Below, piece after piece: positions 5,128 through 48,110 of a stretch of DNA of 64,000 nucleotides (its first letter is position 1; each line of letters begins with the position of its first letter). Under the pieces are notes generated by a model. The model searched no databases. It saw only the letters and a program-made list of their open reading frames with translations, and was not told where the DNA came from. Position numbers and translations under genes: made by a program. This DNA comes from Cliona cf. orientalis. Lineage: Eukaryota > Porifera > Demospongiae > Clionaida > Clionaidae. The stretch lies in NCBI GenBank assembly GCA_963930775.1, contig OZ005690.1, positions 3,084,225 to 3,148,224 on the forward strand, written 5' to 3'.

Positions 5128-5212
5128 TAAAATGCACACTTGTACTGATTAAATGTATTGCTAGCTATAATAATATGTGTATAAGTTTGGGTGGGGGTAT
5201 AAAGGAGGGGAA

Positions 5213-5376
<164 letters not shown>

Positions 5377-6319
5377 TGCGTATGTGCAGCTACGTCAGCA
5401 TATGTTGCTGCATGGCATGTGTTGTTGATAATAATATGGGAGTGATTATAAAGGACACAGCTCACTATAATGATCGCTACTACACAATCATATCGAATTT
5501 TATTACTGGTGGCCATGGATTAGTCAACAGAGAATGATGACTTATGCATATATAGTAGCTACAAAAGTCCATCCGATATTTAATATTATATGCATGCAAG
5601 GGCATAAATAAATTATTAGATATTGCAGCCCTCGGACACTAATTTAAATAATAACTCCGAACGGGAACCTAATAAAAATGAACTCCTGGGACCATGCTAT
5701 ATATTGAATCTACAACCAGTATGGGAAACAATATAATATTATTATTATTATTATACAATTTGTAGTGGCCTAATCATTAGCGACCATTAGTAGCTAAGCA
5801 GTTGATGTCTGATAACTATCTATTGGGTCAAATTGGTATGGTCTCTTGGAACTATGGGAACTTCTCCAAATAAGTAATAGCTATGTAATAGTATCATCAC
5901 CCATGTAGCTATATATAGGTTTGTTCCAAACCTGGGTCATGCTTTCCTGATAGCTAATACATTAAATTTAACAATTGAAAGTGAAAATAAGTTTATAATA
6001 ATACATTTTATCACGTTGCGCTTCAAATAGTTTTTAGAATAATTTCAAGCTTACAACTGAAATCAATGTAGATAATTATTAATTATTAATTTCACACTTT
6101 GTATAGTAGCTATAAGTATAGTAAATTTACTATGATAAGTTGATCGTGATAATAGCTATGATAGCTACTATTAAATTTAATATAAAGAAGCGGTTCAAAG
6201 CAATTATTATCGATCACTAGCTATGAAGTAAATGTTGTTAGAACGACAGCTGTCAGTGAGTATTAGATTCATACTGGTTAGCCATATAATTATTGTAATT
6301 CAATGTGTAGATACGCATA

Positions 6320-8179
6320 ATGTCTACCAAGTTCTTATTGCCATTAATTTTACTAAGACTTTGTACTATCAGTCAATTGGAGGAGACTTGTCTCAGTAAC
6401 TGTCGGCTTACTTGGACAATGAACTACGCAAATTCACGTAGCTGCATCTGTGGACGAGGCACATATGGACTTGATGGGTATCCTGAGTGTGCAAATCATT
6501 CTGATGACACAATAATGGTGGAGATGGACAAAAAGTACTGTATGACATTCAATGAGAGTGATAATATGACATACATAGGTAGCTGTCCGTATAACAGTTT
6601 GCTATTCTTGAATGAAGAAATTGCAGGGTATGGCAAAATATTTAATAACGTCCGTTTACCCCAAAATGCTCTTGAACTCAATAACTTTGTATGCAATGTC
6701 AGCAATTTTACTGAGCGTGCCAGTTACATACGTAATGTTTGTGGACAGCAGAGACGTCAAGGTATGCTTTGCAGTCAGTGCGGGGATGGTCTAGGTCCAG
6801 CAATTTTATCATATACACATCCATGCGTAGAGTGCAAATGGTACGGGTGGTTACTCTACTTCATCTTATCCTTTGTTCCAGCTACCATTTTCTGCTTCTT
6901 GATTGTCGTCTTAAGAATCGATGCTCTTTCTCCTCCTCTTAATGCCATAGTTATCTTCTGCCACGTGATGGTGTCACATGTTAATCACATGCCGTGTAAG
7001 TTCCTGGAGTACGCTACTATAGGCATAGGCTCTTTTTCTCCGCTGGTTTTAGTAGGTCTCACAATTTATGGCTTTTTTAACATGGATTTTCTGGTGTATG
7101 TAGTACCTCCATTTTGTGTCAGTGAGAAAATATCCACACTGACTGCTATATCTCTGGACTACATTGTTGCCTTATTTCCACTTTTTCTCTCAGCCGTACT
7201 TTATATTCTGGTCGAAAAACACGATAGTGGGTGTTTCCTACTTAGGTTGATATGGAGTCCATTTCATAAGTGCTTTGTTCATTTTAAAAGACGTTGGGAC
7301 ATCAAAGGATCTATTATAAATGCCTTTGCTACTTTATATGTTCTATCGTTCACAAAAATAATTTCAACGTCAGTGAACCTAATGCTATGGGTGTTAGTTA
7401 TCAACACTTGTGGAGATAAATTATGGTTCAGACTGTACTATGATGCCTCCTGCACTATATTTCATCCTTGTCATTATCCATACGCATTTCTCGCAATAGT
7501 TGTGTCAACATTTTTCATTGTTCTACCATCTCTCTTCATTTTTCTCCATCCATGCAAATTTTTCAACAGGTGTAGAAATTTTCAGTGTCGATTGCTACAA
7601 GTGGCAAACGAAGTAGCAAAAGTTTTTCAACAGAGCTTCAAGGATGGGACAGAAAATACACTAGATTGCCGATGGTTTGCAGGGATCTACCTTCTGATAA
7701 GGGTAGTTATTGCCGCATCTGTGACCTGGAAGTCATCTGATTCACTGCAAATAAAAGTGATAAGCGCTTTTGTTGGGCTTATGCTGGTGGCTATTTTTCA
7801 ACCTCACACCAGGACTTGCTATAATGTTTTTGATTCCTTGTTTTTCTCATGTTTGGGAGTAGTTTTCACTCTTTTGCCAGCTGGGCAGAGCCATCATATT
7901 ACACAAGTCTACATCTTCTTTTTACCACTGATCGTCATAATCGTGTTTATTTGCTGGAAATTGATAGTCACTAAGAGGTACGTGAGTGGCGGCTGTGGGT
8001 GGGTAACTTCATATCTTCGCCAAATTATTCATATTATGTTTTGCAATAAAATTGATGCGGCATCTACGTCTAACAATGATAACATCACACAAGATCAAGA
8101 TCAAGAGCAAGAGCCACTTGTTGCTAATAATTCTCAGTCAAAAGTTTTGTATACTGTAGTAGACATCAATAATCATTGA
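6320..8179 (+). CDS. Cys-rich multi-pass membrane protein, paralogue of the beta-helix receptor
   Basis: A single frame of 619 residues. A signal peptide (MSTKFLLPLILLRLCTIS) leads to a Cys-rich ectodomain up to about residue 172, including RQGMLCSQCGDGLG, then about eight to ten hydrophobic helices and a short polar tail ending near DQDQEQEP. The block RxGxLCxxCxxGL-(x)n-C-xxC-xxW, the first helix, and a late motif NVFDSLFF match the membrane half of the protein at 14545-18835, so the two are paralogues. This one lacks the beta-helix region. The role is unknown; the layout suggests a surface receptor or adhesion protein. The start is chosen because the signal peptide follows it directly. No introns are evident. 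The 3' flank is duplicated at 9583-10098. Confidence 0.8.
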   Translation: MSTKFLLPLILLRLCTISQLEETCLSNCRLTWTMNYANSRSCICGRGTYGLDGYPECANHSDDTIMVEMDKKYCMTFNESDNMTYIGSCPYNSLLFLNEEIAGYGKIFNNVRLPQNALELNNFVCNVSNFTERASYIRNVCGQQRRQGMLCSQCGDGLGPAILSYTHPCVECKWYGWLLYFILSFVPATIFCFLIVVLRIDALSPPLNAIVIFCHVMVSHVNHMPCKFLEYATIGIGSFSPLVLVGLTIYGFFNMDFLVYVVPPFCVSEKISTLTAISLDYIVALFPLFLSAVLYILVEKHDSGCFLLRLIWSPFHKCFVHFKRRWDIKGSIINAFATLYVLSFTKIISTSVNLMLWVLVINTCGDKLWFRLYYDASCTIFHPCHYPYAFLAIVVSTFFIVLPSLFIFLHPCKFFNRCRNFQCRLLQVANEVAKVFQQSFKDGTENTLDCRWFAGIYLLIRVVIAASVTWKSSDSLQIKVISAFVGLMLVAIFQPHTRTCYNVFDSLFFSCLGVVFTLLPAGQSHHITQVYIFFLPLIVIIVFICWKLIVTKRYVSGGCGWVTSYLRQIIHIMFCNKIDAASTSNNDNITQDQDQEQEPLVANNSQSKVLYTVVDINNH

Positions 8180-8296
8180 TTAACATTAGAGCAAGCTTAA
8201 AAATTTATTATCACACGGTAGTTATTATAAGTACGAGGGGGCACGGTGCCCAAAATACTCGCGCATGCACAATAATATTGAGCTACCACGATCTCA

Positions 8297-8834
8297 CAGC
8301 GCTGAGGGTTTAGCACCAATGGTGTTCATTAATTTATAGAAAACAAGTTGGAATCATTAGCAATAATTTTATGCAGAGAGTAGATCGGGGTGCCTGGGGA
8401 CGAGGCTATTATATGAAACATCAGCCTGTTTATGTAAACATTTAATTGAGTTGGAGGACTTGCCATGAGAAAAGAGACTTAAATTTGTAGTATAGCTATG
8501 TGTAACTTGTTGCATGCATGTACAGAGTAAAGAAATGTAGTGTAATCGTAGTAATCTACTCTATGTTTGTATATTAATTTTGTAGGGATATTAGCTAATA
8601 TGTAGTTCTGGAAGTGCACTTAAGTTTACTGGGAAACTCATCTCATGTAGATACGCATGACATATACTACATAAGCTTGCACACAATCATTTGTAGCATA
8701 CTCCAAATCCTGGTAGTATATATAATAGTATTTTATGCATAACAAAAAACAGTGCATGCATGTTGTAGCTAATAATGAAAACTATGAAAATGGGATGTAA
8801 GATAGCCAGTAGAACCAGTCCTCTAAGTTGATCA
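8297..8834. repeat. Duplicated non-coding block, copy 1
   Basis: About 540 bases beginning GCGCTGAGGGTTTAGCACC and ending near CTAAGTTGATCA recur as a direct repeat at 9583-10098 with moderate divergence. It lies just downstream of the 6320-8179 gene, so it may be the 3' flank of an ancestral gene copied along with it. Confidence 0.8.
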
Positions 8835-8911
8835 ACTGCTCACAATTATCTCAGTAACCTTTTTCAACTCCAGCTTCCTAAACCTGAGGCATAAAATTTA
8901 ATATTAGCATT

Positions 8912-9160
8912 CAGGGTTTCATCCAGAAAGAAATTTTTGGGGGAGAAGTGGGTGTGGCAGTTTCATGCACTGTGTTCTCCTCCTCCCCCATTAACCATTA
9001 TGAAGTGTTTGTGGATGTCACTGAGGTATTACTTGATTTCATCTAGTGCTCTTAAATAATTTATTACTGATCACTTGCACCGCAGCGCAAAAACAATAAC
9101 ACGCTCCCCTCCCCCACTAAACTCTCTCTCTCCTTTCCCTTCTTCTTCTTTCTCTCTTCC

Positions 9161-9193
<33 letters not shown>

Positions 9194-9246
9194 ATTTCCC
9201 CCATCCTCCCCCCCCCCCCCCCCCCCCCCCATTGGATGAAACCCTG
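8912..9246. mobile_element. MITE with 5-bp target duplication GCATT
   Basis: Terminal inverted repeats CAGGGTTTCATCCA / TGGATGAAACCCTG are flanked by GCATT on both sides (8907-8911 and 9247-9251). Near the right end lie a run of 30 G (9163-9192) and a run of 23 C (9208-9230). Same family type as 40047-40406, 41450-41791, 54368-54706 and 54852-55196. Apparent Pro/Gly-rich frames across the tracts are not genes. Confidence 0.85.
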
Positions 9247-9262
9247 GCATTGGAAAATCACC

Positions 9263-9400
9263 ATGGCTTGCTTTGGTCTCTTGACTAGGTATATCGCTCA
9301 TTCACTGCTCCGTAAATCAAGCAACCGGTGATGTCTACTACAACTCAATTGACCTTTGCACTAGCTATACCACCATGTGTACTGCTCTCTCAGTTTGCTG
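9263..9400 (+). pseudogene. 5' relic of a beta-helix receptor gene
   Basis: Starting at ACCATGGCTTGC, this stretch aligns for about 140 bases with the beginning of the gene at 14545 (ATGGCTTGCTGTGGTCTCTT), covering the signal peptide and the start of the mature protein as far as CTCTCTCAGTTTGCTG. The frame is broken by small length changes and meets a stop after about 22 codons, and the rest of the gene is absent. It is followed by the second copy of the duplicated block seen downstream of the 6320-8179 gene, so a whole gene copy may once have stood here. Confidence 0.75.
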
Positions 9401-9582
9401 ATCTGGTATGCACGTAGTTGATATTATGTAATAGCTTCTGTACAGTCAATATTAGTACAATGTCATTCTTGTGGTCTCTATAACACTGCTAACAGCAACT
9501 ATTGCAGTGACGTTGCTGGTTTTGATTTGTAACATGTAGACAAGCTATAGCTACTCTGTCACTAATGCATGCAATAAATCTA

Positions 9583-10098
9583 ACAGCACTGAGGGTTTAG
9601 CACCTGTGGTGTTCATTAATTTGCAGAAAACAAGTTGAAATCATTAGTTGGATAATTAATTTTTATGCAGAGAGTAGATTGGAGTGCCTGGAGACAAGGC
9701 TATTAGAAACAGCCTGTTTATGTAAAGATTTGGGATGGAGGACTTACCATGAGAAGAGAGACTTAAATTTGTATGTAGCTTGTTGCATATATGTATAGGG
9801 TTGAGTACTGTAGTTTAATAGTACTAATCCACTCTGTGTTTGTACATTAATTTTGTGGGGATGTTAGCTGATGTGTAGTTCTGGAAGTGCAAAAAGTTTA
9901 CTGGGAAACTCATCTCATGTAGATACGCATGACATATACTATAATATTTTAAGCTTACACACAATCATGCATAGCATACTCCAATTCCTGGTAGTATACT
10001 GTGTGCATAACAAAAAAACAGTGCATGCATGTTGTAATGATAAATTCTATAAAAATGGGATGTAGATAGCCAGTTGAACCAGTCATCTAAGTTGATCA
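9583..10098. repeat. Duplicated non-coding block, copy 2
   Basis: Direct repeat of 8297-8834, located after the beta-helix relic. Shared landmarks include GAGGGTTTAGCACC, TTTATGCAGAGAGTAGAT and TAGATACGCATGACATATACTA. Confidence 0.8.
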
Positions 10099-10746
10099 TG
10101 GTGCACTATGTATTAATTCTGAGCACATGGTGTTCTTAGTATTTAATTAAGGCTATGTTTTGTATCATTTTGTCAGTCTGTATGTGTTGTCAAGTCTATT
10201 ATTCTTGCGCTGGCTGCCACGACGTTACAGCCACCAATGCAGGTAAATATGCTATAACATTAAGAATAACAACAGCTATTAAAATTAATTTGTCTGACCT
10301 GCTGCATAAGAAGCAATGCAAATATTATAGTAGCTAAATGGTAAAATCTTCATAGTGCACCGTGGATTAAGTATAATTATACTAATATCATGACTTAGCC
10401 TTGTATCCTAGGTAACAGCCATGGTATAACTCCCATATACCCCAGCCCTCAGGCATTATAACTCCCTACCCCTGACAGTAGTCCAATAACACAGTTGCAC
10501 TGGCATACTAAGTTTGTGTTGTAGTTACTAGCTAGCTTTTCACTAGCTGTAGCCAGTAGCTCCCACACATAATACAATCACTAGCTAAGGAGGGTTCCAG
10601 CTTGATAGACTAACTATTGTACAGATTGTCATTATGATAGAATCTAGCTACCTACTACTCCAACTCTCAGTCAAGTTTCAAATATGAAAAAGTAAACAGT
10701 CTGCTGATTACACTGCCAGTGACCAATCATGGTCAAGATATTAAAC

Positions 10747-10862
10747 AGATAAACTATGTTTGCCCAGGATACACCATTCATATACCACCTTCGCTCTCGG
10801 GCTACGCCCTCGAGCTCAGGGTGGTATATGAACGGTATATCCTGGGCAACCATAGTTTATCT
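10747..10862. repeat. Fold-back element (MITE-like palindrome)
   Basis: AGATAAACTATG leads into TTGCCCAGGATA and ATATACCACC, then a GC-rich core, then the complements in reverse to CATAGTTTATCT. The total is 116 bases. Between 10099 and 10746 I see nothing else that is supported. Confidence 0.8.
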
Positions 10863-11100
10863 ATTACTAATTTATGAGAGAAAGTGTATGGTATGTGTGG
10901 CTTTTTATAGTAAGGTAGATAGTTTAATTCCAAATAAGGCATGGTAGCTAGCTACCAGCAAATCACTTTAAGTGTCAGTGTTTGGTAGCTAGGCCATGCA
11001 GAGTCTCTTTATCTGCAGCTGGTCATGCACCATAATAATCCTTATTATTTTGAGACAAGTATTAAAATAGAGTAGCTATAGATAATAATATTATTATGAT

Positions 11101-11930
11101 CCCACCTGGTAGCCAATCACATTGTGGCCAGCATTACATTTCCTCTTTTATTAGTTGCATGGCCATAACACCTATTTTGATTATTCTGTTTATCCTAGTG
11201 ACTTCATCCCACCTGTCAAAAGCATATTGTTGGCTAGAGTAGCCAATCATATTTAATTTAATTTTTGGCTACTATTATAGCATTAGTTACATGACCTTGT
11301 ATCCTGTTTATGGGACCTATCACAATGCCAGTAATATTATTATCTTGTTTATCCTCTGGAACAATAGTATGAGCCCATCTGTCTTGTCAAAATATTGCAT
11401 ATCAGAGTAAATTACATTATGGCGAGCGTTATATGTCACTGTGCATGCATGTAGAGTTCTCATTTGTAGTATACTGTATATAGTCCACTGTATGACCTTA
11501 ACTGGGATGCATGAGCTAGATGCACAGTTCAATGCACCACAATTAAGGTCTTGCAAATAATTTGTTTGCCTTGACCCATCTCATCACAGGCCTATATGCC
11601 ATGATCACCCATACCTTATTATAAAAAGTTTGGTTGCTAGGCGACGGACAACTAAAGGTTCTAGAGCATAAACATGATGTTTTTCAATTATTGCTTTGTC
11701 ACCAGAGTATCACCTGGTAACAATTAGAGTATAGTCAATCACATTGTGGCCATGAGTGTCCTTTCATGACCAATAATTGGTAACACTTTTATGTAGAATG
11801 TGAGTCCACCTGTCAAAACACTTGTAGTCGAAGTATAACTGATCAAATTGTGGCTAGCAGTACCTGACACCCTGTACATGTAATTCTCATTCATAGCAGG
11901 CCACAGTATTGTATCCTCCCCTCAAAAAAT
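11101..11930. repeat. Degenerate tandem repeat upstream of collagen 1
   Basis: Diverged units of very roughly 150-200 bases share CCCACCTG, AGCCAATCACATTGTGGC, CAGCATTAC, CATGACC and ATCCTGTTTAT. Clear instances begin near 11101, 11210, 11370 and 11750. The words ATCCTGTTTATC and GTAGCC also occur in the 20740, 25105 and 52600 repeats, so the array may derive from that element. Confidence 0.5.
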
Positions 11931-12094
11931 TCTAGAGCATGCATAAACAGGATACCGGTCTTTAATTGCATCACCAGAGAGTATAAAGGGAGCTATGTCA
12001 TTCTGAATACCCTTAAACAAGACTGCACTGAGCTTTAACCTGCATGCATTATTAACTGAGGAAAATTACCAATATTCAGTATTATATTATCGTC

Positions 12095-13057
12095 ATGAAA
12101 TCTACAATTCTATTGTCACTTGGTATCAGCATCATTTTGTTGGTGGATAGCTCATCTGGAATAGCAGCTCCAGAGAAGAAAAATGGAGAGATAATGTCCA
12201 CATCAGAACTTCATCGACAAATCAGAAGCTCTGAAACGAATGATACAGCTGGACCACATCTGCCGGGTACTGTTTGTTTGACTATCGAGAAAGCATTACG
12301 TGGAGACGATGGCAGAGATGGAGAGCCGGGTAAGGACGGCCTCCCTGGACTACAAGGTCCCCAAGGACCGCCAGGAGAACGTGGTTTGCACGGAGAAACT
12401 GGAGAGAGAGGTCCACCAGGAGCACCTGGAATTCCTGGACATTACGGGCTCCCAGGTGCTAAAGGAGTGGCAGGATCAACCGGGCGACGGGGAGCAACTG
12501 GACCACCAGGACCTAGGAGTGGAGGAGTGGTGTATACAAGGTGGGGAAAGAGTTCTTGTCCAAGTACTCCAGGAACAGAGCTGGTGTATGCAGGAAGAAC
12601 AGGAGGAACTCAATTTGGTCATCGTGGTGGAGGAGCAAACCAACTCTGCATGCCACTTGATCCCCAGTACAGCAATTATAAGCCAGGAGTGCAGGGGCAT
12701 AGTTACATGTATGGGTCTGAATATGAACAACTTGTAACTTATACAAAACAAAATCACGATGCCACATGTGCTGTCTGCTATGTTTCCTCGCGCGAGACTA
12801 TTCTAATGGTTCCTGCCAAGACCAGCTGTCCAACGTCATGGACTAAAGAGTATCAGGGATATCTTATGTCCGAAGGTAGAAATAATCTTGGACGTTCAAC
12901 ATTTATATGTGTCGACAGTGCTTTTGAATCTGCTCCTGGTACTCAAGGCCATAGACCAGCTACAGATTTATACCATGTTGAAGCAGCTTGCAATGGTCTC
13001 CCCTGTCCTCCCTATGTTGATTACAAGGAGCTTACTTGTGCAGTTTGCACAAAATAG
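12095..13057 (+). CDS. Short-chain collagen C4-like protein 1
   Basis: A 320-residue single-exon secreted protein. A signal peptide (about 1-24) is followed by a short pro-region, a Cys (VCLTIEKALR), 24 uninterrupted Gly-X-Y triplets (about 70-141), and a C-terminal domain of about 178 residues opening [15 protein letters not shown]. That domain carries about ten Cys and the blocks [41 protein letters not shown]. It matches the short-chain collagen C4 pattern I recall from freshwater sponges; such collagens are matrix or basal-attachment material related to spongin. A TATA-like box (GTATAAAGGG, 11981) lies about 110 bases before the ATG. It is the diverged, uninterrupted outlier of the copies at 24.7-30.6 kb. 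Confidence 0.9.
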   Translation: MKSTILLSLGISIILLVDSSSGIAAPEKKNGEIMSTSELHRQIRSSETNDTAGPHLPGTVCLTIEKALRGDDGRDGEPGKDGLPGLQGPQGPPGERGLHGETGERGPPGAPGIPGHYGLPGAKGVAGSTGRRGATGPPGPRSGGVVYTRWGKSSCPSTPGTELVYAGRTGGTQFGHRGGGANQLCMPLDPQYSNYKPGVQGHSYMYGSEYEQLVTYTKQNHDATCAVCYVSSRETILMVPAKTSCPTSWTKEYQGYLMSEGRNNLGRSTFICVDSAFESAPGTQGHRPATDLYHVEAACNGLPCPPYVDYKELTCAVCTK

Positions 13058-13826
13058 ATGTTACTGAGAATCAAAATAACATTATACTAATTATTAGTAC
13101 TGTGTAGCTACTTTTGCATACACTAAAGATTGAAATTAATTATCTGAATTTTCTTGAAGCGTATTACGGTAACACGATAATTACTGCCATCACATGATGC
13201 AATTAATGTCTTTTTTGTACATATTAGCTACACACTAGCACTATGCACATGCACACATGCATCACATACCACAGCTCCCACACTAATCAGCACCAGTACC
13301 ACAATATTATTATTATGGTCTTGTGCGTGTGCATGCTTGCACACACATACCCAACATACCACTTATATGATATGAATAGCAATTATTATAATTGTGGGAA
13401 ATATTCAGTTGCTACGGTTTGGATTGAAGCAGCTGAGGTGGAATGGTGTCATGATCATACACTCACAGTAATAAAAATAATATAGTACGCACTAAGTTTT
13501 AATTCCCATTCGGATGCCCTTCACTCAATGTCAAACAATGATATAATATTATACAACATTGTGAGATCAAAATGGAGTAGTAATAATTGCGCTGTGCATG
13601 CAGAGTGAATTGCTGAAGAGGATCAATACTATTATCAAAGATGCATGATCCTTACCATAAGAAAGTTGTTCAGAAAGTAACTTTCTCTTATGGAACACTC
13701 CTGGCAGTGAAGGATGCTGTCACTGTGGCTCTCGGCTAGATGCACTAGCCATCAGGCCTAAATTCATTACCGTAGCATTTGTATACAAGTTCCAAGATTT
13801 TCTTTACAGGAAAAGAAAATCTCAGG

Positions 13827-13898
13827 ACATGAGTGGGGATCGAACCCACGCACTCACATCTCCGGTGTCATGCTCTACCAATTGAGCTATCAAGAGAT
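13827..13898 (-). repeat. tRNA-derived SINE head
   Basis: On the minus strand an A-box-like TAGCTCAATTGGTAGAGC and a B-box GGTTCGATCCC with a perfect T arm (GTGGG...CCCAC) are present. The acceptor stem does not pair and the anticodon stem has a mismatch, so this is not a working tRNA. The tail TGAGATTTTCTTTTCC is shared with the tRNA-like unit at 28953. The rest of 13058-14544 is AT-rich with no supported gene; an open frame at 13243-13485 lacks any recognisable feature. Confidence 0.6.
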
Positions 13899-14544
13899 GA
13901 ATCAGACTGATTATCTCAGTTATGTCAGTTGCATACCTCTGTAGTAATAATAATTAAGCAGCATAATATTTTTGCTATGCGCGCACACCACTGTTACCTT
14001 GGTTAAATGTTAGTTGCATGCCTCTTAGTTAAAGGGTATTTCTGCTATGCATGTATTCTAAATAAATAATTAGGAATTATCTGTAGTGGTCTCATTCCAG
14101 AAAATTAAGCTAATTTCATGGCTGTAGAGCAGCATAATTATATCAAATATTAATGATTTGCAACCACTTAAGTTGAATAGCTATACTGTTATATATTGAG
14201 TTATTAAGTAAAATATGCTGGAAATTACAAACTCTGTACATAAAATTATATTATAGCTATCTCTCCCACCCATGGAGCTATAATTGGAATCTGATGATAA
14301 TAATAATGTTAACTATGTCATTCATATCATGGAAGTATAGTATAGCAGAAACTTCCTATGCTTTTTAATGCATGCTAAGGATATATAAACGGATGCATGC
14401 AGTCAACAGTAAATAGAATTAGATCTGTAATTGAATTCGTATCGTGACCAACGGCTTCTCTTCTCCAGATAGTATTGAATATTCGAGACGATAAGAAGTA
14501 CGTTAAACCTCTGGTCAATTCAATGATTGGCAATGCAAGTAAGC

Positions 14545-17500
14545 ATGGCTTGCTGTGGTCTCTTGATAATGATACCGCTCATTCTCTGCTCTGTAAATCA
14601 ACTAGCAACCAGTGAGATCTACTACATCACCACGCAATCAAGTGATCTTTGTGCTACATATACATGTCTAACCCTCTCTCAGTTTGCTGCCAATTCGACC
14701 CATTATCTCCACTCCAACACCACACTGGTCTTCCTCCCTGGAACACACTACCTGAGCGAAGTCAACCTAACATTGTCAAATGTGGACAACTTTATAATGA
14801 AGTCTGAGAACTCAACAGCACAAATCAAATGTACAAGCTACTCACATTTTCATTTCAATGAGTCACAGTTCATCTACATCACTAACCTGGAGTTGGTTGG
14901 GTGTGGGGGGAATCAAGTGAAAGACGTTGAAAGTTTTGTGATCCAAAATACAAAATTTATAGGTGTAGAGAGTAGTAGAACAGCACTGGAAATGATTGAA
15001 ACATCAGCAGAGTTTGTCAATAGTACCTTTGTGTCCAATAGGAATGGATCTTATCGGAAATGCATTCAGTTTGGTGATGGTACATACTGGAATGTGAGTT
15101 TCCATAGTGGATATATTGGAGGTGCAATTATTGCCAAAAATAGTGTAGTAAATATCAGCCAAAGCATGTTTGAAGATAATGGAGCAGACTATGGCGGAGC
15201 AATATTTGTAGAGCAACGCTGCACCATTTACTTGAGTAAAACTATATTTATTAGCAACTATGCCAGGAATGGAGGAGTAATGAGTTCCTCTAGTAGTGAA
15301 TCATTTGATTACTGTAATAGTAGTGATATCAAATCCATTGGAAGTAGTAATATCACAATTACTGAAAGTGAATTTTACAGTAATAAAGCAGCCAACCATG
15401 GAGGAGTACTGTTCTCTAGGGGTAAAGACTTCATCACAATAGAAGAGAGTAAATTTTATAATAATTGTGCTCTAGTGAGTGGAGGAGTACTGCAAATATC
15501 TAGTTCATTAACTGGCAGCCCTATTACAGTGACTATAGAAGTGAGTGAATTTTACAATAATAGTGCTGCCCGGGGAGGTGTAATGCGGACCATCGGTAAC
15601 TCAATTATAACAATAGATTGTAGTAACTTTACTAAGAATCGATCACCAAGGGGAGCAGTCATATATGCTACAGACGGCCTTAAAATAAGGTATATCAAAC
15701 ATGTTCTATTTGATAGTAATTCAGCCAATGATTATAATTATGGTGTGGTATACCTATATAACTCTGAATTCAGCGGTGACCGTCATGCAAGAGGAAGTGT
15801 TACATTCTCAAACAACATTGGATCACTAACAGCATTCAGCAGCAACATCACTTTCACTGGTCATGCTACATTTATGAATAATCATCGAGGTGCAATAATT
15901 ATTTTTCGGAGCAATGTACGCTTTAATGGAGTATGCACTTTTGAATTCAACCATGCTAACAATGGCGGAGCAATACAGGCTACCAATAGTAAACTGTATG
16001 TGAATGGTAATTTAACTATAGCATATAACACAGCCACTAGAAATGGAGGAGGTGTCTACCTCTCAAATAGTGAGTTTAACTGCCAACCGAAGAGCTCCTT
16101 TGAACTTATCAATAATACAGCAGCATATAAAGGAGGAGGAATCCATGCCATTAGCTCATCTATTAATAAGGTAACTTCATACATAAACTGGTGCAAACAA
16201 TTAAGTTCACCTTTTTGCTATGGTGAAAATTTGAAGTTTATAGGAAATGCAGCGGAAATAGGAGGAGGATTATCTTTGGAAGCTAATGCAAAAGTTTACA
16301 TGCTGAGGCATCGATCTATTAAAATTTTTGATAATCTCGACTTGCATGAAAAAGATGGCAGCTACAGCATGTTAAGATTCATAGCCAATAGTGCACATTA
16401 TGGTGGAGCCATATACGTCAATGACAATACCAACTCAGGTACGTGTAGCAGTCATCCAAAAACAGAATGTTTCTTTCAAGTGCTGGCGCTCTATGATCAT
16501 CATAGTAAGCGACGTAATATTATTATCACACAGGGTCTATATTTCTCACAAAACCTTGCTAACGTATCAGGATCCATTCTCTATGGTGGACTACTAGACA
16601 GATGTGCTGTGAGTCAATTTGCAGAAGTTAAAAAGACTCATGCACCTAAATATAGGTCAGGTAAGAGTAATGGGATTGCCTACTTCACGATTGTTTCCAC
16701 TGCATATTATGATACTGATCGATATCGTGATTTATTGATTGACAACGTGTCATCTTCTCCAGTCCGAGTGTGCCTTTGCATTGATAGTAAATACGATAAC
16801 TGCACCCACCAACACTATAAGGCTCAAGTGAAGAAAGGAGAAACATTCCCATTGTCTCTTATCGCTGTTGATCAGATTGGCCACCCAGTTAATGCAACCA
16901 TCCAAGCCTCCCTCACCTTCACTGACAGTAGTCTAGCTGAAGGACAGTTATTTAGGAAAATATCTGCAAAGTGTACTGACTTAGGATTTAATATCGCTTC
17001 ACCTCATAGCTTAGAAAAGCTTACCATTTATGCTTCAGATGGTCCATGTAAGGATTCCGCTCCTTCTAGTACAATTGTAGAGATCCACTTTCTTTCTTGT
17101 AGCTGTCCAATTGGACTACAAATTTTTGGAAAGAGTACCACAAACTGTACATGTGAATGCCACAGCAATATCAGTCGATACATGGAACATTGTGATAGCC
17201 ACTCTGGATCACTTGTCAAGAGGCTCCAATCAAGAGCGTGGATTTCCTACATCAATGGCACAGAACTAACTGGTTACTTAGTCTACCCCAACTGTCCTCT
17301 CGATTACTGCTTATTAACTAGTCCACCAGTTAACCTCAACCAGCCGAATGGAGCTGATGCTCAGTGTGCCTTCAACCGGTCGTCTCTGTTGTGTGGATCT
17401 TGCCAACCTGGTCTCAGCCTCTCTCTTGGTAGTTCACGCTGTCTCTCGTGCCCTAGCTACTGGCCAGCACTATTCACAACCGCTACTATAGCAGCTAGTC

Positions 17501-18835
17501 TAGCTGGGATAGCATTGGTTACTTTATTGCTAGTACTCAACATGACTGTTGCAATTGGAACTTTAAATGGACTCATCTTTTATGCCAATGTTGTACATGC
17601 AAATAAAAACATTCTGCTTCCATTTCAAGAGACAAATTTCATTACAGTATTCGTATCTTGGTTGAATTTAGAGTTAGGAATTGACTTCTGCTGCTTTCCA
17701 GGAATGGACTATTACATTAAAATATGGCTGCAGTTAGCTTTTCCTGCCTACGTCATTTTTCTCGTCATCTCAGTTATCGCCTTAAGCTCCTACTCTACTA
17801 AATTCTCTAACCTCATTGGAAAGAAGGATCCAGTGGCAACTCTTGCTACGCTAATCCTACTCTCTTTTGCTAAGGTTCTTGAAATCTGCTTTAAGTCTCT
17901 GTCGGTTGGCATTCTTAAGTATCCCAATGGCTTGAATGAAAAACTATGGCTCCCTGATGCAACTGTCAAATATCTCTCTGGAAAGCACATTCCTCTCTTC
18001 ATTGTAGCTGTTCTCATTCTCCTGGTTGGTCTGGTCTACACTGCTCTTCTCTTCTCCTGGCAGTGGCTCCTTCACCTTCCAAGATGGAAAATTTTCAATT
18101 GGTCAAGGAATCCAAGGATACAAACTTTCATTGAAACCTATCATAAGCCTTACACTCCCAAACATCGCTACTGGACTGGTCTGCTGTTGATTGCTCGTAT
18201 CGTCTTGTATTTTGTAGCTGCTGTTAATGTTTCCAATGATCCCACAGTTGCTCTTACAACAATTAGTCTCACTCTTTGCTGCATCATTCTTCTTAAAGGA
18301 TTCATTGTGAGTAGATTAGCTATACAGAAAATGGCCAATGGATGTGCTTGAGACTCTTTTCTTTTTAGATGCCCTATTCTTTACAGTACTCACCTGGTCC
18401 AGCCTCAGCAATGAACATATTCACCTGGAGGCCATTTCATACACTTCAGTCATTGTAGCATTCGTGCTTTTCCTGCTCATGATCATCCACCATGTGTACA
18501 CGTACACCACTGTCTTCTCAAAGGTCAAGAGGACAAAGCTTGGTAGGAAGATTGACAGATTGTTCACCGAAACTCAGCCAAACCCCAACCCCAGGCAGCG
18601 TCGCTATAGTCCCCCACCTGATGACGACATTCATAGGTTTGATGAGCTACTGGATGAGCTGGACTGCCCAGTCAACACTGATGACTACAACACAGTGCCA
18701 CTCCTCAGATCCCCCCCTGTGGTGGAGCCAACCTACTCTGTATTGGAGTTGCCCAAACCTCGTGGTCGGGCAGCACCAGATGATACGGATCATGATCAAG
18801 TGACCGACACAAATCACCTACCGGGGATCATATAG
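14545..18835 (+). CDS. Giant beta-helix, Cys-rich, multi-pass membrane protein, with frame break
   Basis: From the ATG at 14545 (MACCGLLIMIPLILCS, signal peptide) a frame of 1,268 codons runs to a stop at 18349-18351. Residues about 30-640 are repeats of the type F-x-N-N-x-A-x-x-GG(A/V/I), as in chlamydial Pmp and other right-handed beta-helix proteins. A Cys-rich region (about 840-970, with SSLLCGSCQPGLSLSLGSSR) and about eight helices follow. Just before the stop the +1 frame reads LYRKWPMDVLETLFFLD, matching NVFDSLFF in the paralogue at 6320, and continues to 18835 with two more helices and an acidic, Pro-rich tail. A single-base insertion near 18318 or a sequence error best explains this. 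Whole length would be about 1,430 residues. An ATG at 14533 in the same frame is a weaker start. A role as receptor or adhesin is inferred. Confidence 0.8.
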
Positions 18836-19485: not shown

Positions 19486-19530
19486 GAGTGTGTGGCAACA
19501 ACAAGCTATTTTGTTACATTGAGGTGCACA

Positions 19531-20571
19531 ATGAAGTCATTCTTGTCTCTACTCGTTTATGTGCACCTTTTTCAAGCTTCTTTAGCTATTTATCGGTCTC
19601 CACTGTTCGGTGGGAGTGACAAGGGAGGAAATTTTGATGATCGAGCTTATTCCATGACACCAAAAGTGATTGGATTTACAAAGTTTTTGATTCAAAGCAG
19701 CACAACTGGCATAAAGGGAGTACAGGCCACTTATGAACTAGAAGATGGTCAAATCAAGACCTCTCCTTTCCATGGTGGAAACGCTGGACCAGTTAATAAC
19801 AGCATTGGTATCGGTCGTGGAATGCCGATTGTACGAATCGAAGGAGAATTGTCCTCAGAGGGGAACACTTCTCAACAGCATTTGACCAGCCTAACACTCT
19901 ATGTGAGATACCCTGAAAGCCTTAATCTTGGAAAGTATGGTCCGTATGGGGGGAACATTGGCTCAGTTAAGAAGCGCCCATTTGGCTTTCCTGGTATAAT
20001 TCTGGGCCTATTTGGACAAAGCAATGACGATGTGGAAGCGATAGGGTTTGATATTGACACTTCTCCTACTCCCGCTATACCTTATTACAAAAAAACTTCT
20101 GTTATCGGAGTTGATATCGGCAAACCGTTTGACGATGCACTTGCTTCACTGTCACCCGTGAAAATAAAGACATTGAAGATACAGTACAGTGACTGGATTG
20201 ATGGTATTGAGACTACTTATGTTCTTCGGAATGGGACAACAGCCGTGAAAGGTCATGGTACATTCACCTCTACTAGAGTAACTTCTTTACTAGTCTTGAG
20301 TGAAGATCACGTGAAGGCTATAGCACCAGAGGATGTTGTGATTAACCTTGCTGATGATGAGTGGATTTTACGGATCGATGCTGGTGTTGAAGACGGAAAA
20401 GGGCCAATTAACTATCTAAAGTTTAAGACGCGGGATTCCCAGGGGATGTGGAAAAGCTACGGCCCCTATGGACATACAACCACCTCTGATACTGTTACTA
20501 TTGATGGAACTATTTCAGGATTTTATGGATACAAAAGTGAAAGAGTAAATGCACTTGGATTTTATTTCTAA
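19531..20571 (+). CDS. Secreted protein with two jacalin-like lectin domains
   Basis: A 346-residue protein. The ATG at 19531 opens directly into a signal peptide (MKSFLSLLVYVHLFQASLA). Two jacalin-like (mannose-binding lectin, beta-prism) domains follow at about 19-165 and 176-346. The first has FGGSDKGGNFDD and KYGPYGGNIG; the second has DWIDGIETTYVLRNG, a SYGPYGH block and the closing VNALGFYF. In this family the GG near the N-terminus and the GxxGxx(D) loop bind sugars; the second repeat lacks the first glycine pair, so its sugar site may be weakened. Family members act as secreted carbohydrate-binding proteins (for example ZG16-like). It stands alone between the beta-helix receptor and the fibrinogen-related relics, with no intron. 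Confidence 0.85.
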   Translation: MKSFLSLLVYVHLFQASLAIYRSPLFGGSDKGGNFDDRAYSMTPKVIGFTKFLIQSSTTGIKGVQATYELEDGQIKTSPFHGGNAGPVNNSIGIGRGMPIVRIEGELSSEGNTSQQHLTSLTLYVRYPESLNLGKYGPYGGNIGSVKKRPFGFPGIILGLFGQSNDDVEAIGFDIDTSPTPAIPYYKKTSVIGVDIGKPFDDALASLSPVKIKTLKIQYSDWIDGIETTYVLRNGTTAVKGHGTFTSTRVTSLLVLSEDHVKAIAPEDVVINLADDEWILRIDAGVEDGKGPINYLKFKTRDSQGMWKSYGPYGHTTTSDTVTIDGTISGFYGYKSERVNALGFYF

Positions 20572-23384: not shown

Positions 23385-24275
23385 ATGAGCCAGTTTGTAA
23401 TGTACTCAACTCTTATAGTTCTCTGTCTATCTCTTGGATCAGTCACCATCATCAGTGGCCAGAGACAAATAATTGACGCTCAGATACTGGATGAAGGTGG
23501 TGTCAGCAGTGTCCTTCAGTGGAGGCAAGAGAGAGAACTAGAAATGAAATTGTTAACTCTGCAATTTCAGCCATAACCGGTCGTCAGCTCCACACTTGCA
23601 ACGGTACACCAGGATGGAGGCGTGTTGCTTTTATCAATATGACTAATACCAGCTATAACTGCCCTACTGGACTCAACTTGGCATCATATTCCAAGAGAAC
23701 ATGTGGAGCATCACATACAACTATGCATGGGAGGATGTTCTTCAACCACATTCAGTGTTGGAAGTTTATCATACAGCCGTGTGTGTGGGAGGATAAGGGG
23801 ATACCAGTTTGGAGGAACTGATGCTTTTTGGGCCTATGGTAATCAAAATCAAGGAATAAATGGCTACTATGTTAATGGTGTAAGTCTGAGTCATGGAGGT
23901 GCTGGCAGCCGACAGCATATTTGGACATTTGCCGCTGGAGTATCAGAGATGGGCACAGACATTGATCCCTTTATGTGCCCATGTGACACACATAATTACG
24001 ATCTTGTCCCTACATTTGTTGGCGATGATTTCTTTTGTGAGAGTGGCGTAAACTCTCCCTGGAGTTATCAGCTCATACTCTACCCCGATGATGTTCTCTG
24101 GGATGGTCAGAACTGTACATCCACCAGCACATGCTGTCAGCTCAACAACCCTCCATGGTTTACAAAGAACCTGACCAATGTCACAACTGATGACATTGAA
24201 TTGAGGAGCTGCACTAACTATCTACCATCACATGAAGATGTTTTCCTTGAACTCATCGAACTCTACGTGCAGTGA
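23385..24275 (+). pseudogene. Fibrinogen-related secreted protein, frame-broken copy
   Basis: Three frames in sequence encode one protein. They are a signal peptide (MSQFVMYSTLIVLCLSLG) from 23385, a second frame from about 23521 reading RQLHTCNGTPGWRRVAFINM, and a third from about 23735 reading GGCSSTTFSVGSLSYSRVCG through HIWTFAAGVSEMG to LELIELYVQ. The blocks GWRRVA, CPTGL, SRVCGR, HIWTFA, CPC, FVGDDFFCE, WDGQNC, TTDDIELR and ELYVQ match the intact gene at 37988. There are two single-base-scale frame changes and no sign of introns. It is either a recent pseudogene or carries sequence errors. Family members are secreted, fibrinogen-like proteins of cnidarians and sponges with possible pattern-recognition roles. 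Confidence 0.75.
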
Positions 24276-25768: not shown

Positions 25769-26683
25769 ATGGGTTGCTCTTTACCCTATTTGCTTGTTGG
25801 TATGATTTTCCTGACAGCTGGCTGTTCAAATGGACTACCACGTACGATTGAAGAAAAGGACGAAAAAGCAATATCTAACCTGCAGCTGCGCCGTGACACT
25901 AGAAATGCTGACAACATTAGTGGTATACCCACTTGCCCAACTCTTGAGCTATTGAGAGGCCGTGATGGTAAAGATGGTGCTGCCGGAAGAGATGGACGTG
26001 ATGGAATGCCTGGAGTTCAAGGGCCATTAGGGCCTCCAGGAGAACGCGGTCCAGCAGGGGGACCACAGGGCTCACCAGGTGTACCAGGAGCAAGGGGACT
26101 AACTGGACAACAAGGGCCTCCAGGACCTCCAGGACCAAGGAGCGGAGGGGTGATCTACACAAGGTGGGGAAAGAGCTCATGTCCCACTATTGCAGGTACA
26201 GAGCTACTTTATGCTGGCCGAGTTGGAGGAACTTTTTCCGGTCATAATGGTGGAGGAGCAAATTTTTTGTGCATGCCACTTGATCCTCAGTACAGTAGTT
26301 ATACACCTGGGGTACAGGGGTGGAGTTATATGTATGGAGCTGAATATGAACATCCTATTGGTGGTACTGGCACTACAAATGATGATGCCACTTGTGCTGT
26401 ATGCTATGTTTCCACACGTGAGACTGAACTAATGCTTCCAGCTAAAACCAGCTGTCCAACATCTTGGACCAGAGAGTATTACGGCTACCTTATGTCAGCA
26501 CGTGTAAGGGATAGTGGACGCTCATCATTTGTATGTGTTGATGGAGATTTCGAACCTGTGGATGGTAGCCGAGGCCAGAGAGATGCTGGCCATTTATACC
26601 CTGTTGAAGCTGTCTGTGGCACTATGCAGTGTCCTCCTTATGTGAATTATAAAGAACTGACTTGTGCAGTCTGTACAAAGTAA
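25769..26683 (+). CDS. Short-chain collagen C4-like protein (copy 3)
   Basis: A 304-residue single-exon protein. A signal peptide ([20 protein letters not shown]) is followed by a pro-region ending near RRDTRNADN, then [16 protein letters not shown] and about 19 Gly-X-Y triplets with a one-residue interruption (GPAGGPQ). The C-terminal domain of about 180 residues starts [15 protein letters not shown] and ends ELTCAVCTK, with ten Cys; [18 protein letters not shown] is a conserved block. Probable role: trimeric secreted matrix collagen of the spongin-related class. A TATA-like box (CTATAAATAG, 25697) lies about 70 bases upstream of the ATG. Confidence 0.92.
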
Positions 26684-27164: not shown

Positions 27165-27465
27165 ATCCCAATTCCAGGTAAACTAAAATCTTTTGTAGAT
27201 AATGGGTAGGTCATAATCAACTGCACCCATTATTCTGTATTTCCTGTACTTACCGTATATATTAATTATTAGCTATATTATACTACAATGATGCAATTTC
27301 CTGTAGCTACTACTGCTATGTTAGTATTGTTAGTACCATGTGCTATATAAAAGCATTGTGCTCACCCTCTCTCTTAGAAAACTAGATTCCCTCTATTTAG
27401 CTACTTGCACTGATAAGTGTTGCTGCACTATTCTGCGTCTATTCTGCTTGGTTGTCACAATAAAA
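27165..27465 (+). promoter_or_regulatory. Duplicated collagen promoter (copy 4)
   Basis: This block is repeated at 29410-29683 before the next collagen copy: AATTCCAGGTAA, TCATAATCAACTGCA, TATTTCCTGTACTTAC, ATGATGCAATTTCCTGTA and CACCCTCTCTCTTAGAAAAC. Each has a TATA box (GCTATATAAAAG, 27341; GCTATAAAAC, 29568) about 115-125 bases before the ATG, and the CTCTCTCTTAG stretch about 30 bases later is the likely start region. Confidence 0.65.
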
Positions 27466-28380
27466 ATGAGCTGCACTTCACATTATCTGCTTGTGGGTGC
27501 TATTCTCCTCGTAGCTAGCTGTTCATTGACAAATGGACTACCACATATGAGTGAAGAAAAGGATGGAGAAGCAGTATCTCCACTGCAGCTTCATCGTGAT
27601 ATTAGGAACACTGAAGACACTAGTGACATACCCACTTGCCCAACTCTTGAGCTATTGAGAGGCCGTGATGGTAAAGACGGTTCTCCTGGAAGAGATGGAC
27701 GTGATGGAATGCCTGGAGTTCAAGGGCCATTAGGGCCTCCAGGAGAACGCGGTCCAGCAGGGGGACCACAGGGCTCGCCAGGTGTACCAGGAGCAAGGGG
27801 ACTAACTGGACAACAAGGGCCTCCAGGACCTCCAGGACCAAGGAGCGGAGGGGTGATCTACACAAGGTGGGGAAAGAGCTCATGCCCAACGACACCAGGT
27901 ACTGAGCTACTGTATGCAGGCCGGGTTGGAGGAACTTACGCAGGGCATGGTGGTGGAGGAGCTAATTATTTGTGCATGCCACTTGATCCTCAGTACAATA
28001 GTTACACTCCTGGGGTACAGGGGCATAGTTACATGTATGGAGCTGAATATGAAAATCCTATTGGCGGTAACGACGATGATGATGCCACTTGCGCTGTATG
28101 TTATGTGTCCACACGTGAGACTGAACTAATGCTTCCGGCTAAAACCAGCTGTCCAGCATCTTGGACCAGAGAGTATTATGGATACCTCATGTCAGGACCT
28201 ATTGGGAATAGTGGACGTTCATCATTCGTATGTGTTGATAGAGCATATGAACCGGTACCTGGTAGTCAAGGGCATAGAAATGGTGCCCACTTAAACCATG
28301 TTGAAGCTATCTGTGGCACTATGCAATGTCCTCCTTATGTAAATTATAAAGAACTGACTTGTGCAGTCTGTACAAAGTAA
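27466..28380 (+). CDS. Short-chain collagen C4-like protein (copy 4)
   Basis: The ATG at 27466 (AAAAATGAGC) opens into the signal peptide [20 protein letters not shown]. The frame is open further upstream across the promoter, but that part is non-coding. The product has 304 residues with the same plan as copy 3: pro-region, one Cys ([10 protein letters not shown]), about 19 Gly-X-Y triplets with the GPAGGPQ interruption, and the ten-Cys domain ending TCAVCTK. A run of Asp (NDDDDATC) sits before the CAVCYV block and differs among copies. Its promoter and 3' flank are shared with the neighbouring copies, showing tandem duplication of whole gene units of about 2 kb. Confidence 0.93.
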
Positions 28381-29071: not shown

Positions 29072-29683
29072 CCTGCCTTACCAGGCTTATGGTATTTAGC
29101 CTTTAATTATCAATATTATTGTTCAAAACACTCGATCGGGACATTACAATAGTTAGCCTATATCTCGCAAATAATTTTTGCAAGTGGCAGGGTTGATAAA
29201 CCTATAGAATAACCACAAGAATGCATTAAGACTATTGCATAACATTACACAATAGTACCACAAAATTTAATATTCTATACACCTTGGTGTGATTAATATT
29301 TTATTGTAGACTCGCAATGATATTATCATAATTAGTAGATATAATATGTGATTATTTTATTGTGACTATTATTTTGACACAAAGTATTATATTATTATTA
29401 TACTTTTGAAATTAAGTATCAATTCCAGGTAAGCTAAATTCGATAATGAGCTATTCATAATCAACTGCATGCCCACTATTCTGTGTGAGTATTTCCTGTA
29501 CTTACAGTACATACTAAAATGATGCAATTTCCTGTACTACTGCTATGCCTGTGTTGTTACTGCTATGTGCTATAAAACAGCATTGTGCTCACCCTCTCTC
29601 TTAGAAAACTATCTAGCAACTTGCACTGATAAGTATTGCTGCACTATTCTGCGTCTCTTTTGCTCGCGGTTGTCACAATAAGA

Positions 29684-30602
29684 ATGAGCCGCACTTTACA
29701 TTATCTGCTAGTTGGTGCAATTCTCCTCGTAGCTAGCTGTTCAAATGGACTACCACGTATGAGTGAAGAAAAGGACGGAGAAGCAACATCTCCACTGCAG
29801 TTGCATCGTGATATTAGGAACACTGAAGACACTAGTGACATACCCACTTGTCCAACTCTTGAACTATTGAGAGGCCGTGATGGTAAAGACGGTTCTCCTG
29901 GAAGAGATGGACGTGATGGAATGCCTGGAGTTCAAGGGCCATTAGGACCTCCAGGAGAATGCGGTCCAGCAGGGGGACCACAGGGTCCACCAGGTGTACC
30001 AGGAGCAAGGGGACTAACTGGACAACAAGGGCCTCCAGGACCTCCAGGACCAAGGAGCGGAGGGGTGATCTACACAAGGTGGGGAAAGAGCTCATGTCCG
30101 ACGACTGCAGGTACACAGCTTCTATATGCAGGCCGGGTTGGAGGAACTTATGCAGACCACAGTGGTGCATGGTGGAGCAAATTATTTGTGCATGCCACTT
30201 GATCCTCAGTACAATAGTTATACTCCTGGGGTACAGGGGTGGAGTTACATGTATGGAGTTGAATATGAGTATCCTATTGGTGGCACTGCAAATGATGATG
30301 CCACTTGTGCTGTATGCTATGTGTCCACACGTGAGACTGAACTAATGCTTCCGGCTAAAACCAGTTGTCCAACATCTTGGACCAGAGAGTACTACGGCTA
30401 CCTTATGTCAGCACGTACAAGGGATAGTGGACGTTCATCATTTATATGTGTTGATGGAGCATATGAACCGGTTCATGGTAGTCAAGGGAATAGAGCTGCT
30501 GGTCATTTATACCATGTTGAAGCTGTCTGTGGCACTATGCAGTGTCCTCCTTATGTGAATTATAAAGAACTGAGTCAGACTTGTGCAGTCTGTACAAAGT
30601 AA
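29684..30602 (+). pseudogene. Short-chain collagen copy 5, frame-shifted
   Basis: The ATG at 29684 (signal peptide [20 protein letters not shown]) opens a normal collagen frame through the Gly-X-Y region into the C-terminal domain. Near 30165 a 4-base insertion (GCAT) shifts the frame, which then stops at 30200-30202. The remainder ([20 protein letters not shown] to TCAVCTK) continues in another frame to 30602. One Gly-X-Y triplet has Arg replaced by Cys (GEC), and two residues are inserted near the end (ELSQTC). It is probably a recent pseudogene; sequence error at one point is possible. Confidence 0.8.
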
Positions 30603-37390: not shown

Positions 37391-37987
37391 AACCAGGAAA
37401 CTGCGGTATTATACTATTAACTTATGCACACATTAATAGGATTCAGAAGGTTTCACGGAATGCTAATGTAATAACTATTATAAAGTTTTACAGTGAAAAC
37501 AATCTTCTTTAATAATAATACAAGCTCTTTGCATGCATAACATTTTAATTATAATTTTTACCCTATAACGTAACATGACATTGTATGCGCAATTGGCTGC
37601 ATAGTTATTACACATGTTTTATAAGTGGATCTTGGTCAAGTATGAAAGCTACATGGTTTATTATTGTCTACCTTTGTTGTGATAGGATGCACGCATGCAA
37701 GGATATCTTAGTATGATAATTTGAAGGTGATAGTAAGTTCATCTCAAAATCTGTTTAAGCATATTGTAGATTCATTGGTCACCCTTAGCATGCTTATTGA
37801 GCAGCTTTTGAGGTGGACTGGATCATCGCATAACTTTCATCAGTCTGCCTGCCAAACCATGACGTGACTTGCTGGCACCATACCTTATTTGGAAATTCAA
37901 AAAAATTTAAACTCTATAAAAGGCCACCACTCACAGGATTATCTCTCATGTGCAACATCCAAACTACCTCCAAAGATTCAAGCCGCT
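37391..37987 (+). promoter_or_regulatory. Promoter of the intact fibrinogen-related gene
   Basis: This is the right part of spacer copy B. A perfect CArg-type box CC(A/T)6GG (CCTTATTTGG, 37883-37892) lies about 22 bases before a TATA box (TATAAAAGG, 37915). The start codon is at 37988. The same pair of motifs in the same order occurs before the plus-strand promoter at 32818 and the minus-strand copy at 33185. Binding by SRF/MEF2-class factors is inferred from the motif only. Confidence 0.55.
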
Positions 37988-47867: not shown

Positions 47868-48082
47868 TGTAGTAACTTGAACAGTGCACTGTGTATGTAT
47901 GTATGTTTTGAGTTGATGTAATGTTATTGTGGTTTATTGTTATTTCCTGTATCTAAGGATGTGTTACTTATGATGTAATTTTTGTCAGAGTATAAAGCAT
48001 GCATATGCATAAACTATATTATCAGTTGCCAAGCAAATCATACACTTGAGAGCAGCAGCGACCTGCGTGCACGGTCACCACA
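47868..48082 (+). repeat. 5' LTR
   Basis: 215 bases with TG...CA ends; nearly identical to the 3' LTR. A TATA-like GTATAAAGC lies near 47993. Confidence 0.92.
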
Positions 48083-48110
48083 TATTGGCGACGAGATAAA
48101 ACTCGTGGAG

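Follow-up and report, generated by a model that had tools for sequence, protein, structure and literature searches.

The sponge Cliona cf. orientalis carries, within a 64,000-nucleotide stretch of its genome (assembly GCA_963930775.1, contig OZ005690.1, positions 3,084,225 to 3,148,224 of the forward strand; hereafter the window), two genes that share common descent and belong to a family of at least 424 loci, many of them clustered. The first, the long-form gene P0001 at position 14545, joins a beta-helix ectodomain to cysteine-rich modules and a helical membrane core, and its reading frame is broken near the 3' end. The second, the short-form gene P0002 at position 6320, consists of cysteine-rich modules and a related core. 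Long forms of the family evolve under purifying selection, most strongly in the core, for which Pfam and the Protein Data Bank (PDB) gave no convincing named relative. We regard it as about an even call that both genes belong to one large plasma-membrane family of lineage-expanded surface recognition or adhesion receptors, a reading that draws on sequence features.

Architecture and common descent of the two genes

We compared the genes with each other and with relatives from the same genome using three alignments: A1, of 16 long membrane halves; A2, of 21 short proteins; and A4, of 21 long and short members. An earlier note on this DNA had given the 6320 gene a cysteine-rich and a membrane part. 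The open reading frame (ORF) 6320-8176 does encode a cysteine-rich ectodomain and many membrane helices, preceded by a hydrophobic amino terminus, and it runs without a break. The features of the two loci are listed below, where N-out and C-in denote an amino terminus outside and a carboxy terminus inside the cell.

6320..8176, + strand: short-form gene P0002, 619 amino acids, one open frame
6320..6379, + strand: P0002 hydrophobic amino terminus (hydropathy peak, residues 5-16), a probable signal peptide
6389..6751, + strand: P0002 first cysteine-rich module (alignments A2 and A4)
6752..6835, + strand: P0002 RRQGMLCSQC..CVEC module, at the DUF7630-like position (A2 alignment and profile-profile alignment)
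6848..7957, + strand: P0002 membrane core, 8 clear helices and 2 weak candidates; charge favours 9, N-out and C-in
7958..8176, + strand: P0002 probable cytoplasmic tail (charge pattern)
14545..18348, + strand: long-form gene P0001, first open frame, 1268 amino acids
14545..14616, + strand: P0001 probable signal peptide (judged by eye from the sequence)
14617..16614, + strand: P0001 beta-helix region, 12 Pmp-type repeats (residues 209-677); the N-terminal part also aligns with the long form L069
16687..17094, + strand: conserved P0001 stretch between beta-helix and cysteine-rich module (VCLC..GETFPLSLIAVDQ..), common to the distant long form L069
17095..17373, + strand: P0001 first cysteine-rich module (CSCPIGL..CTCECH..CPLDYC; A1 alignment and profile-profile alignment)
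17374..17454, + strand: P0001 NRSSLLCGSC..RCLSCP module, the place where some relatives match DUF7630
17455..18315, + strand: P0001 membrane core up to helix 7 (hydropathy and charge)
18316..18319, + strand: 4 extra nucleotides in the loop that joins helices 7 and 8, breaking the frame (comparison with paralogues)
18320..18832, + strand: continuation of the family sequence in another frame, helices 8 and 9 and tail (profile A1 positions 429-588, E 7.8e-60)

The common descent of the 6320 and 14545 genes, proposed in the earlier note, was borne out by three comparisons that agree. BLASTP aligned P0001 with P0002 over 356 columns at 19% identity (E 4e-4). A search of the window ORFs of at least 30 amino acids with the short profile A2 found P0001 at E 1.9e-15, and the A1 and A2 profiles aligned over 420 columns, both cysteine-rich modules included, with a probability of 99.3% (E 2.2e-20). 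No third family member was present among those ORFs, the next, unrelated ORFs scoring E 0.063 with A1 and 0.12 with A2. Eleven columns of A4 are invariant. Six are cysteines of the cysteine-rich modules, two (an asparagine and a cysteine) lie in the loop preceding helix 3, and the others are two arginines and a proline. By the numbering of the first row, the polar residues N239, R407 and R417 are invariant, and K307 and H349 occur in at least 90% of members. The sequence blocks by which the note had linked the genes needed some correction. The region quoted as RxGxLC is indeed shared, but P0001 reads R-x-S-x-L-C there; the D-x-L-x-x-L-F-F block is N-V-F-D-S-L-F-F in P0002, and its counterpart D-V-L-E-T-L-F-F lies in the other frame of the 14545 locus.

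As a control, we compared the family core with eight class C 7tm_3 domains from the same genome, for which hhalign gave 0.1-0.7%. Class C G-protein-coupled receptors (GPCRs) have a cysteine-rich module preceding the membrane core. The sponge family resembles them in this arrangement and in the many copies within the same genome, but differs in a core that shows no sequence relation to theirs and has more than seven helices. We rejected a class C GPCR origin on the hhalign values together with the lack of any 7tm_3 hit in the Pfam scans. Among the best 150 of 413 genome candidates scored for 7tm_3 itself, many lie close together on shared contigs.

We built a tree from 40 membrane halves, 14 taken from the 31 long loci in hand and 26 from the 30 short ones. 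It separated long from short forms with 100/100 support; the program flagged long branches (L069, L049 and others) and warned that long branches meet at the long-short join. The tree is unrooted and has no outgroup, so it does not tell loss of the beta-helix in the short form from gain in the long form. The description of the 6320 gene as keeping only the cysteine-rich and membrane parts therefore holds for its plan but not for the loss that the wording implies, given that the short forms make up a separate branch.

A Pmp-type beta-helix in the long form

The Pmp-type repeat pattern occurs 12 times in the P0001 ectodomain, whereas 2000 shuffled sequences averaged 0.52 occurrences and never had more than 4. 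It has no matches in the P0001 membrane half or in P0002. P0001 scored 31.2 bits against Chlam_PMP (PF02415; curated cut-off 20.6) and 28.4 bits against POMP_repeat (TIGR01376 in NCBIfam; cut-off 15). Besides the Pmp repeat, NCBIfam returned a weak match of P0001 to tandem-95 (E 0.29). L069, a long form from another array with a single open frame of 1266 amino acids, stayed below the Pmp repeat cut-off at 16.1 bits, and P0002 had no match to the repeat models at all. Residues 559-1224 of P0001 nevertheless align with L069 at 26% identity (E 8e-47), as do residues 41-394 (E 7e-7). The beta-helix part and the stretch before the cysteine-rich module are therefore common to a distant array.

Chlamydial Pmps are predicted to form a right-handed beta-helix followed by a terminal autotransporter beta-barrel. 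The likeness to them lies in the F-x-x-N-x-A-x-x-G-G type repeat, placed outside the cell, whereas the sponge family has a helical membrane part and is encoded in an animal genome. Pfam matched no autotransporter beta-barrel in P0001, and the C-terminal half of the protein is helical by hydropathy. The plan that the earlier note gave for the 14545 gene, with Pmp beta-helix, cysteine-rich part and membrane helices joined, is thus present at the locus, but not in a single open frame.

A membrane core that fits about nine helices

Averaged profile hydropathy showed eight clear peaks in both forms, ranging from 1.53 to 2.89 in the long form and from 1.48 to 2.54 in the short. Two further segments were weak: helix 2 (1.28 long, 1.22 short) and the stretch before helix 3 (1.21 long, 1.07 short). 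A threshold of 1.3 over at least 5 residues picked out seven segments in each form, with the signal segment of the short form in addition. In a nine-helix model, which counts helix 2 but not the stretch before helix 3, the inside loops are richer in lysine and arginine than the outside loops. L011 has 0, 3, 8 and 3 such residues in its inside loops and 6 in the first 30 residues of its tail, compared with 2, 3, 0 and 2 outside; the corresponding numbers for P0002 are 0, 6, 7 and 1 inside and 2, 2, 2 and 0 outside. Hydropathy and charge together fit a predicted core of about nine helices, N-out and C-in. The figure of about ten given previously is compatible with eight clear and two weak segments, although nine is the best count.

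Database comparisons

Scanning family members one by one against Pfam (21 from A2, 16 from A1 and 21 from A4, with overlap) yielded nothing better than E 0.007 for the membrane core. LapA_dom matched the core in 5 of 16 A1 members (best E 0.0076) and 3 of 21 A4 members (best E 0.0071), and we rejected it as chance similarity on hydrophobic helices, the scores reaching 14-14.7 of 28 bits where a cut-off is given. Phage_holin_8, Cyt_c_ox_IV and Connexin matched the core more weakly and were judged the same way; for Connexin these were 4 of 16 A1 members (best E 0.054) and 1 of 21 A4 members (E 0.083). PDB sequences gave no match to P0001 or P0002 at E ≤ 1, nor did profile searches of the PDB with the family alignments at E ≤ 5 or 10. 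P0002 had no match in Pfam at E ≤ 1 or at E ≤ 5, nor in NCBIfam, nor in PHROGs at E ≤ 0.01. The claim that the membrane half has no named counterpart is in line with these per-member Pfam and PDB sequence searches. Likewise missing from the Pfam scans of family members were the marks of adhesion GPCRs (GAIN/GPS and 7tm_2), the SRCR domain and, up to E 5 or 10, the fungal TRP-like or flavin carrier family PF06011.

These scans bear on whether the core is an ion channel or transporter, with the ectodomain as its gate, mechanical tether or assembly part. Its strong conservation, with invariant or near-invariant polar residues in long and short forms alike, and a helix number exceeding that of a seven-transmembrane receptor would suit such a function. 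We consider it unlikely all the same, given that the member scans returned no Pfam family of this kind apart from chance-level Connexin and that a channel would not usually be present in hundreds of variable copies.

DUF7630 (PF24633), a 45-position cysteine-rich model without known function, was the sole sensible recurrent domain, matching the CxxC module of some relatives. It was matched by 5 of 21 A2 members (E ≤ 5; best 0.014), 5 of 16 A1 members (E ≤ 5; best 0.0077) and 7 of 21 A4 members (E ≤ 10; best 6.3e-6). P0001 and P0002 were not reached at E ≤ 1, and L069 as a whole protein scored 25.9 and 26.7 bits with a cut-off of 27. Across the genome, the best 150 of 812 candidates included 83 matches at E ≤ 0.01, 43 of them above the cut-off. 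When checked against 37 places from the best-match lists, 30 of the 83 were followed on the same strand, no more than 1.4 kb downstream, by a listed match to the family core or motifs, and the other 53 had no such tie. In at least those 30 relatives, therefore, the CxxC module falls under the DUF7630 model. The earlier suggestion of an undescribed system thus stands for the core, for which these searches gave no named relative, but not wholly for the cysteine-rich module, which in some relatives reaches a Pfam entry.

Beyond animals, tblastn identified no relatives among 75 and 23 pattern-matching stretches in IMG/VR or among 24 in bacterial and archaeal genomes. The part of the literature that we searched held no mention of DUF7630 or PF24633, no pairing of "polymorphic outer membrane protein" with Amphimedon or of Demospongiae with beta-helix and transmembrane, and nothing pointing to a beta-helix, cysteine-rich, multi-pass family, although such a family may still have been published. 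Similar-looking uncharacterised proteins are presumably present in sponge and cnidarian databases. Sponge SRCR receptors are a large lineage expansion of cysteine-rich proteins (PMC10855680); the present family is likewise lineage-expanded, cysteine-rich and from a sponge, and differs in that the Pfam scans gave no SRCR domain.

Family size and clustering

We searched the whole genome (216.8 Mb in 149 contigs) with a long-form query, a short-form query and L069, and scored the best 122 of 1463, 87 of 1139 and 100 of 1492 candidates, respectively. Three sequence patterns were also matched, each with a control that gave 0 matches. A degenerate HRYWTGLL pattern had 270 exact matches (reversed control), HLPYAILA had 58 and a Y[KR][KR]WP-type pattern had 103. 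Merging the protein-search lists, the HLPYAILA matches and the first 100 of the 270 HRYWTGLL places resulted in at least 424 distinct loci, a lower bound in which broken copies are counted; 295 of these are long, 129 are short and none is mixed. No fewer than 299 of the 424 lie within 20 kb of another, whereas random placement gave a mean of 32. The two genes that the earlier note took as two members of a family are related as it said, but the family is far larger. Stops within the match were seen at 3 of 122 best-scoring places for the long query, 11 of 87 for the short and 7 of 100 for L069, with frameshifts uncounted.

One array (G000:C7:2207814-2426070) holds a distant long-form subfamily, to which L069 belongs, with 33 matches to the Y[KR][KR]WP-type pattern, none of them on the minus strand. 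The protein search added one broken minus-strand fragment to this 2.21-2.43 Mb array. Its cysteine-rich module has the top DUF7630 scores among the genome matches listed.

Selection on the family

Median omega among long loci was lowest in the core (0.25), followed by the first cysteine-rich module (0.33), the tail (0.42) and the beta-helix (0.50). These values come from 190 pairs (188 for the tail) among the 20 long loci, out of 30, whose frames reach 900 amino acids or more, and the ectodomain data cover the last ~390 residues of each ectodomain. Omega exceeded 1 in 5% of the 188 tail pairs. By simple counting in 20-codon windows, pN/pS was above 1 in none of 37 core windows, and one tail window reached 1.05. 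The difference between 0.50 and 0.25 implies a higher rate of change in the outer part than in the core. On a test as simple as this one, the faster change of the ectodomain reads as relaxed constraint and not as proven positive selection.

The copies might instead result from a mobile or selfish expansion, in which long copies, each in a single frame, multiply and then decay, most of them having no function in the cell. There are hundreds of copies, many in long single frames without visible introns, as in P0002 and L069, and some are interrupted by stops or frame breaks or have short frames. We hold this to be very unlikely, because purifying selection acts in all four regions (medians 0.25-0.50), including the core of the 14545 gene itself (omega 0.23 against 20 relatives), and stops are rare (21 of 309 best-scoring places, frameshifts again uncounted).

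Conservation of the core also bears on a second alternative, in which the family comprises adhesive or matrix-anchoring surface proteins that do not signal and whose helices just fix them in the membrane. Chlamydial Pmp proteins, which the beta-helix repeats resemble, are adhesins, and genes adjoining ours code for collagens and a jacalin-like lectin. One helix would suffice for an anchor, however, whereas it is in the core that conservation is highest (omega 0.25). We consider pure adhesion improbable.

The frame break at the 14545 locus

The earlier note had treated 14545-18835 as one gene. Its frame does not extend that far: the first frame of P0001 ends at a stop at 18349-18351, and the last two helices and the tail are encoded in a different frame, in the ORF 18320-18832. 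The 4 nucleotides at 18316-18319 are missing from all 24 other paralogues that were aligned; five further paralogues without the search motif were left unaligned. Because omega in the core of this gene is still low, the break looks like a recent lesion, a null allele or an assembly error.

The 13 nucleotides at 18307-18319 start with GTGAGT and end with AG, and their excision would restore the frame, which is probably a coincidence. We rejected an explanation of the break by a very short intron because 13 nucleotides are too short, being to our knowledge far below the length of any known animal intron, and because a 4-nucleotide excess relative to all 24 aligned relatives is simpler.

Neighbouring genes and genome context

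Four short collagen-like genes with alike cysteine-rich C-terminal parts, as judged by eye, are located at 12095-13057, 25769-26683, 27340-28380 and 29636-30602. Pfam Collagen was matched by the 12095 and 27340 genes, the two that were scanned, and the 29636-30602 gene is split across two frames in the ORF list. Short collagens, like the many class C GPCR matches in the genome, would fit a sponge origin. The gene at 19492-20571 has a jacalin-like lectin domain (Pfam E 1e-23) and its product is probably secreted. Judged by eye, three ORFs at 37889-39076, 45667-46158 and 23703-24275 look related to one another. Of the two that were scanned, the first contains a partial match to the fibrillar collagen C-terminal domain (COLFI, E 1.1e-6) and the last has no Pfam match.

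Two regions resemble mobile elements by eye: a LINE-type endonuclease/reverse transcriptase ORF at 34463-37225 on the minus strand, and Gypsy-type gag and pol ORFs at 47982-51879 on the plus strand. The 445-amino-acid product of a minus-strand ORF at 26-1360 has no Pfam match at E ≤ 0.01; by eye, it contains several N-glycosylation-like sites and two hydrophobic segments. At ~5175-5500, a long (GA)n/(CT)n microsatellite creates artificial ORFs on both strands.

Proposed function and significance

If the family consists of surface recognition or adhesion receptors, the reading that we prefer, its proteins would sit in the plasma membrane, and the beta-helix of the long form would extend outward and bind partners, which may be matrix, microbes or other cells. 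Coupling of the beta-helix to the core of about nine helices, oriented N-out and C-in, would be provided by a conserved linker and two disulphide-rich modules. The core and the cytoplasmic tail might then relay a signal or anchor the protein. The short form would have the cysteine-rich modules as its whole ectodomain. A C-terminal [ST]x[VIL] motif is present in 17 of 29 long relatives, and 16 of these, many of the tails in one close long-form group, end in VSQV, which is PDZ-ligand-like and may serve as such. Copies would multiply mainly by local duplication, some of them becoming broken, as at the 14545 locus.

Several points weigh against this reading. The proposed function comes from sequence alone, and a core of this kind could equally be a channel or transporter. 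The helix count derives from hydropathy alone, and ten helices with the amino terminus outside would put the tail outside as well. The C-terminal motif occurs in just 2 of 26 short forms, and the 29 long tails come from close relatives, so that the 17 occurrences are not independent events. Finally, pN/pS exceeded 1 in none of 40 beta-helix windows, which gives no direct sign of an arms race.

In a bolder version of the receptor reading, this would be a superfamily of animal receptors not described before, with many hundreds of copies and a distinct membrane fold of about nine helices. It would form a germline-encoded recognition repertoire for microbes or for self and non-self, with the bacterial-adhesin-like beta-helix as sensor. 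We put this forward tentatively, as a possibility we would not ourselves expect to hold.

Animal chemosensory and immune repertoires often sit in large clustered multi-pass surface families. If the sponge family is a recognition repertoire, it would offer a direct handle on how an early-branching animal discerns microbes or strangers. Even otherwise, its 424 or more loci are a large block of genes that could be given a single family name. The searches described above gave no named relative or solved structure for the core, and the outer part is of a kind familiar chiefly from bacterial adhesins.

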